From Prosthecomicrobium pneumaticum (GTDB lineage: Bacteria > Pseudomonadota > Alphaproteobacteria > Rhizobiales > Kaistiaceae): DNA of 64,000 bases. The stretch covers positions 118,217-182,216 of the forward strand of contig NZ_JACHOO010000003.1 of NCBI RefSeq assembly GCF_014199915.1, given 5' to 3'. The translations under genes and the position numbers were made by a program. Below are positions 46,627-52,742 of this stretch, in pieces. How positions within the stretch are numbered: position 1 is the stretch's first letter; the number at the start of each line of letters is the position of its first letter. The notes below the pieces were generated by a model. That model was given only the letters and a program-made list of their open reading frames with translations. It made no database searches and was not told the DNA's origin.

Positions 46627-48030
46627 TCAGCCGAGCGACTTGACGATGCTCTCGACCATCTTCTTCGCGTCGGCGAAGAGCATCATGGTGTTGTCCTTGA
46701 AGAACAGCTCGTTCTCGACGCCGGCATAGCCCGAACCCATGCCGCGCTTGACGAAGAGCACGGTGCCGGCCTTCTCGACGTCGAGGATCGGCATGCCGAA
46801 GATCGGCGATTTCGGGTCGGTCTTCGCCGCCGGATTGGTGACGTCGTTGGCGCCGATGACGAAGGCGACATCGGCCTGCGCGAACTCGGAATTGATGTCC
46901 TCGAGCTCGAACACCTCGTCATAGGGCACGTTCGCCTCGGCGAGGAGAACGTTCATGTGGCCCGGCATGCGGCCCGCGACGGGGTGGATCGCATATTTCA
47001 CCTCGACGCCCTCGGCCTTCAGCTTGTCGGCCATTTCACGCAGCGCATGCTGCGCCTGGGCGACCGCCATGCCGTAGCCCGGCACGATGATGACCTTCGA
47101 GGCGTTCTTCATGATGAAGGCGGCGTCCTCGGCCGAGCCCTGCTTGACCGGCCGCTGCTCGACCGCGCCGCCCGAAGGCCCGGCCGTCTCGCCGCCGAAG
47201 CCGCCGAGAATGACCGAGATGAAGGAGCGGTTCATCCCCTTGCACATGATGTAGGAGAGGATGGCGCCCGACGAGCCGACCAGCGCGCCGGTGATGATCA
47301 GCGCGGTGTTGCCGAGCGTGAAGCCGATGCCCGCCGCCGCCCAGCCGGAATAGGAGTTCAGCATCGAGACGACGACCGGCATGTCGGCGCCGCCGATCGG
47401 CACGATGATCAGGCCGCCGAGCACGAGGCTGACGAGCACAATCAGCCAGAACACGGCGTGGCTCTCGGTGCGGACGAGCGCGATGATCAGCACGACGAGC
47501 AGGATGGCGAGGCCGGCATTGATGAAGTGCCGGCCCGGCAGGAGGATCGGCCGGCCCGACATGTTGCCGTTGAGCTTCGCAAAGGCGATGACCGAGCCGG
47601 TGAAGGTGATCGCGCCGATCGCCACGCCGAGGCTCATCTCGACGAGCGCCTGGCCGTGGATGAGGCCGACCGCGCCGATGCCGAAGGCCTCCGGCGCATA
47701 GAGCGCGGCGGCCGCCACCATCACCGCGGCGAGGCCGACGAGCGAGTGGAAGGCGGCGACGAGCTGCGGCATCGCCGTCATGGCGATGCGCCGGGCGATC
47801 ACCGCGCCGACGATGCCGCCGATGGCGAGGCCGAGGATGATCAGCGTCCAGGCGGCGCCGGCGCGCGGCGCGGCATAGGCGAGCGTGGTCAGGATGGCGA
47901 TCGCCATGCCGACCATGCCGAGCAGATTGCCGCGGCGCGAGGTCGCCGGGCTCGACAGCCCGCGCAGCGCCATGATGAAGAGGACGCCCGAGATCAGATA
48001 GAGGACGGCCGTGACGTTGGGAGACAGCAT
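46627..48030 (-). CDS. pntB: NAD(P) transhydrogenase beta subunit
   Basis: PntB carries most of the proton channel (domain II) and the NADP(H)-binding domain III of the transhydrogenase, which makes NADPH from NADH with proton motive force. The 467-residue protein has about nine membrane segments followed by domain III with VIIVPGYGMAVAQAQHALRE, HPVAGRMPGHMNVLLAEANV and INSEFAQADVAFVIGANDVTN. The operon order is pntAA-pntAB-[inserted gene]-pntB. AGGGG lies eight bases upstream of the ATG, within the repeat left at the insertion junction. Confidence 0.96.
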   Translation of the reverse strand: MLSPNVTAVLYLISGVLFIMALRGLSSPATSRRGNLLGMVGMAIAILTTLAYAAPRAGAAWTLIILGLAIGGIVGAVIARRIAMTAMPQLVAAFHSLVGLAAVMVAAAALYAPEAFGIGAVGLIHGQALVEMSLGVAIGAITFTGSVIAFAKLNGNMSGRPILLPGRHFINAGLAILLVVLIIALVRTESHAVFWLIVLVSLVLGGLIIVPIGGADMPVVVSMLNSYSGWAAAGIGFTLGNTALIITGALVGSSGAILSYIMCKGMNRSFISVILGGFGGETAGPSGGAVEQRPVKQGSAEDAAFIMKNASKVIIVPGYGMAVAQAQHALREMADKLKAEGVEVKYAIHPVAGRMPGHMNVLLAEANVPYDEVFELEDINSEFAQADVAFVIGANDVTNPAAKTDPKSPIFGMPILDVEKAGTVLFVKRGMGSGYAGVENELFFKDNTMMLFADAKKMVESIVKSLG

Positions 48031-48038
48031 CTGACGGC

Positions 48039-48047
48039 CCCTAGCCC
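48039..48047 (-). repeat. 9-base direct repeat flanking the inserted gene, pntB side
   Basis: CCCTAGCCC on the plus strand (GGGCTAGGG on the coding strand). It contains the stop codon of the inserted gene. An identical copy lies at 48705-48713. The bases on either side differ, so the repeat is exactly nine bases long. Confidence 0.9.
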
Positions 48048-48694
48048 TTCTGCTCTAAAAGGTAGTATTTAGCACCCTTTTTAACGCCCCGCATCTCCAC
48101 CCGCCTGTTCACAAGAGGCTTGATAACCAATTTTGCCAACTCGACGGAAATACCAAGACCACGGGCAATGTCGCCTATTCGTAGGCCTTCTTGGGCTTCA
48201 AGTATTTTTACCATCTCCGATCCCAAGAGTTCTATCTGAGACTCCATCGGGTGCTCTCGGACGATGGGAAACTCTTGCTCAAGTAACCTCGATAGGTTCT
48301 CTCCCAGATCAGTGAATGATGAGTAATGCATCCGATCCACTCCTCTTAGATCGGAAGGCACTTCATTAACATCAATCTTTGACGGATTGAAAATTATGAA
48401 GGTTCTTTCAGTGAGTCCAAGAGCCAGGCCGAGCTCAAGGGTAACGTTTGCGTTCCATCCGGTGATATCGAATATCGAGAACCGCGACTCTCTAATATAA
48501 TTTTGAATCTTCTGTAGAATATGCAGGTCTGTTATCTTTTCATCGGCAAATACAAAGTGTACTGAGAAAGCCTTCTCTGCCTCTTGGTATGCTTTACGAT
48601 AGTCCTTTTTGTCGTACAACTTATAGGGGTACGCGACAAATATTTGTCGCGGATTCTTTGCGGCGTTTGGCAAGTTTGAGGATAAGAACGACAT
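48041..48694 (-). CDS. TIR/nucleoside-deoxyribosyltransferase-like protein with C-terminal winged-helix-like domain, inserted in the pnt operon
   Basis: The predicted protein has 217 residues. The N-terminal part opens with RQIFVAYPYKLYDKKDYRKA, then has FSIFDITGWNANVTLELGLAL with Asp76 and Glu87 in the positions of the conserved D-x-T and E-L-G of TIR-like and 2-deoxyribosyltransferase-like enzymes, then DLRGVDRMHYSSF. Such enzymes cleave N-glycosidic bonds in NAD or nucleosides; here this is inferred. The last 65 residues (ILEAQEGLRIGDIARGLGIS, VKKGAKYYLL) resemble a winged helix. The gene is AT-rich: 26 G/C of 60 in 48541-48600, against 43 of 60 in 48781-48840. Start is ATG 48694; GTG 48700 is possible. 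It ends inside the flanking repeat. Confidence 0.8.
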   Translation of the reverse strand: MSFLSSNLPNAAKNPRQIFVAYPYKLYDKKDYRKAYQEAEKAFSVHFVFADEKITDLHILQKIQNYIRESRFSIFDITGWNANVTLELGLALGLTERTFIIFNPSKIDVNEVPSDLRGVDRMHYSSFTDLGENLSRLLEQEFPIVREHPMESQIELLGSEMVKILEAQEGLRIGDIARGLGISVELAKLVIKPLVNRRVEMRGVKKGAKYYLLEQKG

Positions 48695-48704
48695 CGCCAC
48701 CCCA

Positions 48705-48713
48705 CCCTAGCCC
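48705..48713 (-). repeat. 9-base direct repeat flanking the inserted gene, pntAB side
   Basis: CCCTAGCCC on the plus strand, identical to 48039-48047. It contains the stop codon of pntAB. Deleting 48039-48704, or equally 48048-48713, would join pntAB to pntB with a 10-base gap and an intact pntB ribosome site. Confidence 0.9.
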
Positions 48714-49186
48714 GACTTCTTCTTGTACATGGCCAACATGCGGTTGGTCACGAGGAAGCCGCCGAAGATGTTGACGCTCGCGAGCACGAGCGCGACGAAG
48801 CCGAAGCCCTGGGCCCAGAGATGGCCGGAGGAGCCGGAGATCGTGTCGACCGCCTCGACGCCGACCGCGAGCAGGGCGCCGACGACGATCACCGAGGAGA
48901 TCGCGTTGGTCACGCTCATCAGCGGCGTGTGCAGCGCCGGCGTCACCGACCAGACGACGTAATAGCCGACGAAGATCGCGAGCACGAAGATCGACAGGCG
49001 GAAGACGAACGGGTCGATCGCGCCGCCGGTCGCGGCATGGACGACCGCCGCGGCGCCGTCGGCGACCTGATCGGCATAGGACTGGGCCGCGAGCGCGGCC
49101 TCGCGGGCGGCGTCGGCGGCGGCCGCCGCCGCGTCCGCAGCCTGGCGGGCGGCCTCGGCCGCCTGGTCCGGCGTGAGCTGTTCCAT
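48707..49186 (-). CDS. pntAB: NAD(P) transhydrogenase alpha subunit 2
   Basis: PntAB contributes the first membrane helices of domain II in three-subunit transhydrogenases. The 159-residue protein has an Ala-rich cytoplasmic N terminus (about 60 residues, probably helical) and the domain II segments [23 protein letters not shown], followed by [21 protein letters not shown] and [23 protein letters not shown] (each quoted in part). The N-terminal Ala/Gln stretch is longer than in most homologues. GGGGGGAGAG precedes ATG 49186. Ends KKKSG. Confidence 0.93.
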
Positions 49187-49196
49187 CTCTCCCCCC

Positions 49197-50354
49197 TCAG
49201 GCGCTGATCGCCGCGGTTTCCTTCGGCGCGAAGGCCGGGTGGACGATCGCACCGCCGCGCGTCAGCACGGTCGCCTTGACGAGCTCGTCCTCGAAATTGA
49301 TCGCGAGCTGCTTCGAGGCCTTGTCGACGAGCGTCTCGACGAAGGCGTAGAGGTTGCGCGCATAGAGCTGCGAGGCGGTGGCGGCGATCCGGCCGGAGAC
49401 GTTGAGATGGCCGACGATCTTGACGCCGCCCTCGGTCGTCGCGATCTCGCCCGGCACCGCGCCCTCGACATTGCCGCCGCGCTCGACCGCGAGATCGATC
49501 AGCACCGAGCCGGGCTTCATCGAGGCGACCATCGCCGCCGAGACGAGGCGCGGCGCCGGCCGGCCCGGAATGAGCGCCGTGGTGATGACGATGTCCTGCT
49601 TCTTGATGTGCTCGGCGATCAGCGCGGCCTGCTTCGCCTGGTATTCGGCCGACATCGGCTTCGCATAGCCGGCTGCGGTCTCGGCCTGCTTGAATTCCTC
49701 GTCCTCGACGGCGACGAACTTCGCGCCGAGCGACTCGACCTGCTCCTTCGCCGCCGGGCGGACGTCGGTCGCGGTCACGACCGCGCCGAGGCGGCGCGCG
49801 GTCGCGATCGCCTGCAGGCCGGCGACGCCGGCGCCCATCACGAAGACGCGCGCGGCCGGCACCGTGCCGGCCGCCGTCATCATCATCGGCAGGGCGCGGT
49901 CATATTCGGACGCCGCATCGATCACCGCCTGATAGCCGGCGAGATTGGCCTGCGACGAAAGCACGTCCATCACCTGCGCGCGGGTGATGCGCGGCATGAA
50001 TTCCATCGCCACCGCGGTCAGGCCGGCATCGGCCATCGCCTTGACGGCGGCCTCGTTGCCATAGGGGTCCATGGTGGCGACCACCACCGTCCCCTTGCGG
50101 TAGGCGGCGAGCTCGCCGGCGATCGGCCGGCGCACCTTCAGCACCAGATCGGCATCGTGCACGGCATCCGCCGCGCTCGCCACGATCCGGCCGCCGGCCG
50201 CCTCGTATTCGGCGTCGGGAATGCGCGAGGCGAGGCCGGCGCCGGACTGGACGGCCACCTCCGCCCCGAGCGCGACGAATTTCTTGACGGTCTCGGGCGT
50301 CGCCGCGACGCGGCTCTCGTTCCGGTCCACTTCGGCCGGGATACCGATCTTCAT
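49197..50354 (-). CDS. pntAA: NAD(P) transhydrogenase alpha subunit 1
   Basis: PntAA is the soluble NAD(H)-binding domain I. The 385-residue protein has the alanine-dehydrogenase-like fold with [26 protein letters not shown] (quoted in part as [19 protein letters not shown]), [22 protein letters not shown] for NAD binding, [15 protein letters not shown] and [15 protein letters not shown]-type sequence near 250. It is the first gene of the operon and ends 10 bases before pntAB, which supports co-translation. The CoxIV gene lies 65 bases upstream on the same strand. Confidence 0.96.
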
Positions 50355-52061: not shown

Positions 52062-52460
52062 TCACGGCGCCGCGGCGGATTTCGCCAGACTGTCGGCGAT
52101 CCAGCGCACGAGGCCCGCCTCGTCGATCTCGCCCGCGGCGAGCTTGAGCATGACCCCGGTAGCCTCGGCAGGCGGTGGAGCGAAACGGACGCCATTCAGC
52201 CGCAGAAAGCCGATCATGGCCAGGAACGCGACCCGCTTATTGCCGTCCACGAACGGATGATTGCGCGCGATGCCGAATGCGTAGGCGGCGCCCAGCGTGA
52301 CGAGATCAGCCTGCTCATACGCCCATTTGTTGCGCGGCCGGTCGAGCGCCGACCTCAGCGCGCCGACATCCCGTATCCCGATGGCCCCACCGAAACGCGC
52401 GAGTTGTCGTTCGTGGGTGATGCGGATTTCCTCCTCGCGGAGCCACCGCGGCTCGCTCAT
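52062..52460 (-). CDS. Doc-family (Fic fold) toxin
   Basis: The 132-residue protein carries the Doc catalytic motif HPFVDGNKRVAFLAMIGFLRL, matching HxFx(D/N)xNKR. Doc toxins phosphorylate elongation factor Tu and halt translation. N-terminal ITHERQLARFGGAIGIRDVG and ALRSALDRP are typical of the death-on-curing family. The antitoxin gene starts at 52681 and its stop overlaps this start by four bases (ATGA at 52457-52460), so the pair is translationally coupled. Confidence 0.9.
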   Translation of the reverse strand: MSEPRWLREEEIRITHERQLARFGGAIGIRDVGALRSALDRPRNKWAYEQADLVTLGAAYAFGIARNHPFVDGNKRVAFLAMIGFLRLNGVRFAPPPAEATGVMLKLAAGEIDEAGLVRWIADSLAKSAAAP

Positions 52461-52681
52461 TTGGCAAGGGCCTCGAGCGTGTCGCGATACTCCACCATGA
52501 GTTCATCCATCATCGTGATGGCCCGATCGAATTCCGGATCATAGGGCGTCAGCCGCAGCGAGCCGTCCGGCGCTTCGGTGACGTGAAGCCAGTCGCCCTG
52601 GCCGAGATTGAGCCGACCGAGCAGTTCCTTCGGCAGGATCAGCCCGGTCGAGTCGCCGATCTTCCTGATTTCGAGCTTCAT
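52457..52681 (-). CDS. AbrB/MazE-type antitoxin
   Basis: The 74-residue protein has the SpoVT/AbrB DNA-binding fold: MKLEIRKIGDSTGLILPKEL and GRLNLGQGDWLHVTEAPDGSL. The C-terminal 25 residues (FDRAITMMDELMVEYRDTLE) probably wrap the toxin. It is paired with a Doc toxin instead of a Phd-type antitoxin, and would autorepress its operon. GGGAGAG precedes ATG 52681. Confidence 0.88.
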   Translation of the reverse strand: MKLEIRKIGDSTGLILPKELLGRLNLGQGDWLHVTEAPDGSLRLTPYDPEFDRAITMMDELMVEYRDTLEALAK

Positions 52682-52742
52682 CACGCTCTCCCGCGTCATA
52701 GGCACCGTATAACATGGCGCCCGGCCGCGCGCATCGGAAGGG

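Follow-up and report, generated by a model that had tools for sequence, protein, structure and literature searches.

In the type II-A retron effectors (Eco1/Ec86 and Sen2 RcaT), a nucleoside 2-deoxyribosyltransferase (NDT)/TIR-like domain is followed by a DNA-binding winged helix, and NAD hydrolysis has reportedly been seen for Eco1. In CAP12 and in the Pycsar effector PycTIR (PF10137), cyclic-nucleotide sensing domains accompany the TIR domain, and the operon includes a cyclase. Swarozyc (Swz), described in a preprint, is a TIR-like NADase of the DUF4062 type, the C-terminal HTH/winged domain of which is responsible both for binding the phage portal and for assembling the enzyme; the active-site Glu is required for defence (PMC13174449).

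The protein analysed here, which is encoded in a 64-kb stretch of DNA (hereafter, the window), resembles each of these systems in part. Like Swarozyc, it is a single protein that joins a TIR-like domain at the N-terminus, containing one conserved Glu, to a C-terminal HTH/winged domain (assigned here with low confidence), has no obligatory partner gene and shows a patchy distribution. It differs from Swarozyc in that it belongs to another TIR-like family, with no DUF4062 match in Pfam up to E 1, and in that its close homologues lie outside defence islands; recognition of the portal is a Swarozyc feature. The preliminary description of this DNA matched the architecture to no named defence system, which is right only in part: Swarozyc and the type II-A retron effectors share a comparable layout, and the protein belongs to neither. 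CAP12 and PycTIR are the best Pfam and PADLOC matches of the TIR-like domain, whereas the window protein has a winged helix, with no cyclase nearby; unlike those of CBASS and Pycsar effectors, the operon neighbours of its gene are pnt genes. With DNPH1 and NDT (PF05014), the protein shares the fold and the nucleophile Glu in an ELG motif; it differs from them in having a conserved hydrophobic residue instead of the catalytic Asp and in the extra winged helix.

The domain order is the same as in the type II-A retron effectors. This identity was rejected, given that the genome has no match to the reverse transcriptase domain (PF00078). The retron effector chains in the PDB show no detectable sequence match to the protein, and those of Eco1 are not among the VIA structure matches listed, which is no evidence for a different fold. 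The identity as a CBASS effector was rejected as well, the CD-NTase of this genome being located on another contig (L095:6382-8278), where a SMODS/AGS_C CD-NTase gene is followed by a gene for a SLATT_4 membrane effector, in a complete-looking two-gene CBASS-type system. An orphan effector that acts in trans with a sensor encoded elsewhere in the genome, either this CD-NTase or a retron, would fit the proximity of the TIR domain to CBASS TIR effectors in PADLOC and the presence of a SMODS CD-NTase on another contig. Such a partnership is nevertheless very improbable because the CBASS cyclase already carries its own adjacent SLATT_4 effector; in addition, the genome yielded no reverse transcriptase domain, and Pfam recognises no cyclic-nucleotide sensor domain in the window protein.

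A foreign gene inserted in the pnt operon

The features of the locus are as follows.

46627..48030, minus strand: pntB, transhydrogenase beta subunit, host gene 3' of the insert, full length (PF02233, 6e-196)
48039..48047, either strand: right copy of the 9-bp direct repeat CCCTAGCCC, which takes in the stop codon of the inserted gene (repeat count)
48041..48694, minus strand: coding sequence for a TIR-like domain and a probable C-terminal winged helix (ORF listing; ATG at 48694, 217 aa)
48044..48229, minus strand: probable C-terminal winged helix-turn-helix, residues 156-217, about 62 residues (tri-helical model, Foldseek, match of the homologue L070)
48260..48655, minus strand: TIR/nucleoside-glycosidase-like domain, residues about 14-145 (profile and fold comparisons)
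48434..48436, minus strand: Glu87 codon, in alignment with the nucleophile Glu in the 'YELG' motif of DNPH1/NDT, within the match to the CAP12 TIR model
48467..48469, minus strand: Asp76 codon, invariant in the close family, not the catalytic Asp of NDT/DNPH1
48705..48713, either strand: left copy of CCCTAGCCC, which takes in the pntAB stop codon (repeat count)
48707..49252, minus strand: pntAB, transhydrogenase alpha-2 subunit, host gene 5' of the insert (PF12769, 1.3e-34)
49197..50354, minus strand: pntAA, transhydrogenase alpha-1 subunit, the gene with which the interrupted operon begins (PF01262 and PF05222)

The TIR-like gene separates pntAB from pntB, and pntAA lies upstream; all four genes are on the minus strand. 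The preliminary description correctly stated that no sensor gene is adjacent, the neighbours being pntAB and pntB; these neighbours, the interruption of the operon and the drop in GC content over the gene had been overlooked. The GC content falls from about 70% to about 44-45%, and the drop is confined exactly to the TIR-like gene, with a GC3 of 0.51 compared with 0.92-0.95 in the three pnt genes. The 64-kb window contains the 9-mer CCCTAGCCC in two copies only, one at either end of the insert; the tetranucleotide CTAG occurs there only nine times. Such a pair of end repeats is what a clean insertion would be expected to leave, with the target bases duplicated or shared. No transposase gene lies between the two repeats, and the insertion may have occurred by transposition or by illegitimate recombination. 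No homologue of the gene was found in the 150 relatives searched; pntAB has a match in 60 of the 61 genomes searched (the window's own genome included), and at most of the loci that were read, pntB starts 2-12 nt past the pntAB stop codon, commonly 10 nt. In the window, the spacer between the stop codon of the inserted gene and pntB is likewise 10 nt. The low-GC gene is foreign, recently acquired and inserted alone in the pnt operon.

Other small ORFs are present between pntAB and pntB in some relatives, L056, L040 and L046 (a small membrane protein; the spacer in L056 is 658 nt), so this junction takes up inserts repeatedly. Because the homologues of the TIR-like gene occupy unrelated loci, its presence among the pnt genes is most likely a chance event that is useful for expression, with no functional link to the transhydrogenase required; such a link was considered and found to be unsupported. 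At 52062-52705, some 3.4 kb away from the insert, a Fic/Doc-family gene and an overlapping gene for a MazE/AbrB-type antitoxin form a probable toxin-antitoxin pair.

The coding sequence can also be read from an in-frame GTG at 48700, two codons 5' of the ATG (48041-48700, 219 aa). The ORF and the D-x-T, N-V-x-x-E-L-G and DLRGVDR-x-x-Y motifs noticed in it earlier are all present in the ORF listing and the family alignment, as D76-I-T78, N83-V-T-L-E87-L-G89 and D115-L-R-G-V-D-R121-M-H-Y124, respectively. The invariant columns in the alignment of six family members include F19, I67, D76, G79, N81, N83, V84, E87, G89, A91, D115, R121 and Y124. The window protein and its homologue from another genus, L069, are 56% identical overall, 67% in the TIR-like domain and 44% in the C-terminus; within the TIR-like domain, the two genes differ in 28% of the first, 17% of the second and 72% of the third codon positions. 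The excess of differences in the third position over the first and second ones indicates purifying selection rather than a chance reading frame, so that the ORF 48041-48694 is a genuine gene under purifying selection. A recently inserted gene that has no function in the host and is decaying would be compatible with the foreign composition and recent insertion, and also with the degenerate or truncated state of the related TIR-like genes that immediately follow parE in two species belonging to another genus (L071:9500-9900 and L072:9307-9639). This explanation is quite improbable, however, given the intact reading frame and the purifying selection between the homologues.

The TIR-like and winged-helix domains

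Several comparisons converge on the N-terminal domain. PADLOC matches it to a CBASS TIR effector (1.1e-6) and Pfam to PF10137 (CAP12-PCTIR_TIR; 3e-4), with a score of 21.2 bits, below the curated cut-off of 24.7; both matches span the stretch that holds the catalytic-position Glu. A profile of eight sequences compared with the PDB sequences retrieves Rcl/DNPH1 (1e-4), the Trypanosoma brucei NDT (TbNDT; 1.3e-3), CAP12 (2.1e-3) and PycTIR (0.14). The full-length AlphaFold2 model, built on eight sequences, has a mean pLDDT of 59, with block means of 61-81 across residues 11-110, and its VIA structure matches are mainly to DNPH1, NDT, MilB and TIR structures, with Z scores of 10.5 for DNPH1 and 10.0 for the RPS4/RRS1 TIR domain and SPARTA. 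The flavodoxin-like beta-alpha fold of the model matches the TIR domains of RPS4, RUN1, SPARTA and AbTir with Z scores of 9-10, and DNPH1 and NDT equally. Foldseek searches with the full-length model gave no match below 1e-3, and because the E-values are above this level, the fold call relies on the agreement between sequence and structure comparisons.

In the profile alignment, Glu87, which is invariant in the family, coincides with the nucleophile Glu of the 'YELG' motif of DNPH1. The essential catalytic Asp of that enzyme, D80 in human DNPH1, aligns with Ile63, and most of the family members have a hydrophobic residue in this position; mutants at the D80 site are present among the structure matches of the model. 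Asp76 is kept in the close members of the family and substituted in some wider relatives. Thus, of the catalytic pair proposed in the preliminary description, Glu87 lies on the nucleophile position and Asp76 does not take the place of the catalytic Asp; the domain types and the solitude of the gene were read correctly, and Asp76 as the diagnostic catalytic residue has to be given up. Membership in PF05014, named in the preliminary description as a match to look for, is unsupported: the catalytic Asp aligns with Ile63, and Pfam searches up to E 1 give no PF05014 match for the window protein and weak ones for distant relatives only. The hydrophobic residue in place of the catalytic Asp argues against a true deoxyribosyltransferase or a DNPH1-type hydrolase and for a TIR-like activity. 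Taken together, the PADLOC and Pfam matches, the DNPH1 profile match and the Z scores of about 10 support the proposed TIR/nucleoside-glycosidase-like fold, with Glu87 on the predicted nucleophile position; the hydrophobic residue in the place of the catalytic Asp puts the domain nearer to TIR than to deoxyribosyltransferases.

The top profile and Z-score matches being DNPH1 and NDT/MilB, the protein could alternatively be a nucleotide or nucleoside N-glycosidase or a deoxyribosyltransferase that acts on nucleotide pools, possibly in the conflict with phages, without cleaving NAD. We consider this rather unlikely, in view of the conserved hydrophobic residue aligned with the DNPH1 catalytic Asp and the preference of PADLOC and Pfam for CBASS/Pycsar TIR domains.

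The C-terminal domain, about 62 residues long, is probably a winged helix, as proposed earlier. Residues 156-217 are modelled as tri-helical, and the best Foldseek matches for this part, with weak E-values, are mostly to winged-helix regulators of the AsnC, MarR, ArsR and MntR types. The homologue L070 matches the MarR-family phrog_1687 in PHROG (E 0.0014) over its C-terminal stretch; Pfam gives no match for the isolated C-terminus of the window protein. The helix-turn-helix was misplaced in untrimmed MAFFT alignments, so that trimming was needed.

This domain could merely bind DNA as a regulator. If so, the protein would be a transcription regulator in which the TIR/NDT-like domain serves as a catalytically idle sensor of nucleotides, and its targets in this genome might be the pnt operon or its own gene. 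Apart from the resemblance of the C-terminal domain to MarR/ArsR/AsnC-type DNA-binding domains, such a role could draw on the perfect 20-bp palindrome CGCGACAAATATTTGTCGCG at 48632-48651, no more than 65 nt into the gene, the 14-bp core of which has a single occurrence in the genome; among 2000 shuffled versions of the ORF, 4 contained a 20-bp palindrome. L069 shows CGCGACAAATATTTGTCGCG in a degenerate form, and L004 has an unrelated palindrome in the middle of the gene. The palindrome was not found in the homologues L001 and L003 and was rejected as a conserved operator, and none of the examined homologues is near pnt genes. The catalytic-position Glu, furthermore, is invariant in the family, unlike what would be expected of an idle domain. 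On balance, regulation of transcription is an unlikely role for the protein.

Homologues and their neighbourhoods

The family that combines the TIR-like domain with the winged helix is rare, unnamed and patchily distributed. In a sample of 397 genomes from the same order, close homologues were found in two genera only, L069 and L070, both solitary and with a GC content of 0.39 and 0.42, respectively. L069 is flanked by polA and an acyltransferase gene; in a congener, these two genes are immediate neighbours, and this empty site implies that L069 is a lone insertion, too. L070 adjoins htpG, on its upstream side. A rule suggested by the polA and parE cases, that the insert always lies just after the stop codon of a housekeeping gene, was dropped because L070 is upstream of htpG and because the insert near polA lacks a clear direct repeat.

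The distant homologues have other surroundings. L001, from Planctomycetota, is located about 1 kb from an ATPase gene that matches Old, GajA and AriA. L003 directly precedes a homologue of PD-T7-4 (E 4e-82), and genes for a terminase and for a DNA methylase are no more than 8 kb away. L004 is beside a gene for a 1105-aa protein (L060:1827-5144) without a Pfam or PADLOC match; by eye, the N-terminal part of this protein resembles a restriction-endonuclease-like domain. Defence genes recognised by PADLOC are thus beside two of the three distant homologues, and the close homologues are solitary beside housekeeping genes, the informative contexts being few in number.

Related TIR/NDT-like proteins of about 230 aa are encoded in the lysogeny modules of Streptococcus prophages (L096:3372-4067 and L097:3324-4013), between cro and the gene for a CI-type repressor, on the strand of the repressor gene. 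This slot and strand are usual for genes that are expressed in lysogeny, and these prophage genes are candidates for superinfection defence. They share with the window protein the TIR-like domain only; their C-termini are different, with no winged helix in common. Searches of plasmids, phages and IMG/VR with the window, L001, L003 and L004 proteins, which covered some of the query-database pairings, yielded nothing significant; the L070 query alone found plasmid and phage relatives of the TIR-like domain, and these were weak.

A candidate single-gene defence system

The computed properties of the locus, namely a real gene, the N-terminal fold, the position of Glu87, the winged-helix-like C-terminus, the foreign insertion, the solitude and the patchy distribution, are best accommodated, by analogy with the described effectors, if this solitary, horizontally transferred two-domain gene is a single-gene abortive-infection defence system that consists of a TIR-like glycohydrolase, probably for NAD+, and a winged-helix sensor. 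The chances of this reading are about even. Counted in its favour are PD-T7-4 beside L003, the Old/GajA/AriA-like ATPase near L001 and the relatives in Streptococcus prophages. Counted against it are the housekeeping neighbours, rather than defence islands, of the window gene and its two closest homologues, the low mean pLDDT of the model, the Foldseek E-values, the sub-threshold PF10137 score, the lack of a winged helix in the prophage relatives and the small number of homologues with context.

Under the proposed mechanism, which we infer from these comparisons, the C-terminal winged helix, as a sensor of nucleic acid or of a phage protein, would keep the TIR-like domain from acting or assembling. 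Once a ligand derived from the phage is bound, TIR-like domains would come together and be activated by oligomerisation, and the assembled site, with Glu87 as the putative catalytic residue, could break the glycosidic bond in NAD+ or in a related nucleotide. Cleavage of NAD+ would then halt the metabolism of the infected cell and so might provide defence.

More tentatively, and with the odds rather against it, the gene might represent a founding family of single-gene immune proteins. In these, a winged helix that senses phage nucleic acid or protein would directly switch a minimal TIR-like glycohydrolase, and the family would spread into housekeeping operons as bare gene-sized inserts that borrow the transcription of the host genes, here by co-transcription of an NAD-consuming protein with the NAD(P) transhydrogenase. 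If the activity is confirmed, the protein would be a very small complete TIR-type sensor-effector, of about 217 residues and without a partner, from which it would be useful to learn how a winged helix gates a TIR-like enzyme. The locus also shows that an immune-type gene can travel alone and settle inside a core metabolic operon, between genes for subunits; at such a place, away from defence islands, screens that rely on guilt by association would overlook it.
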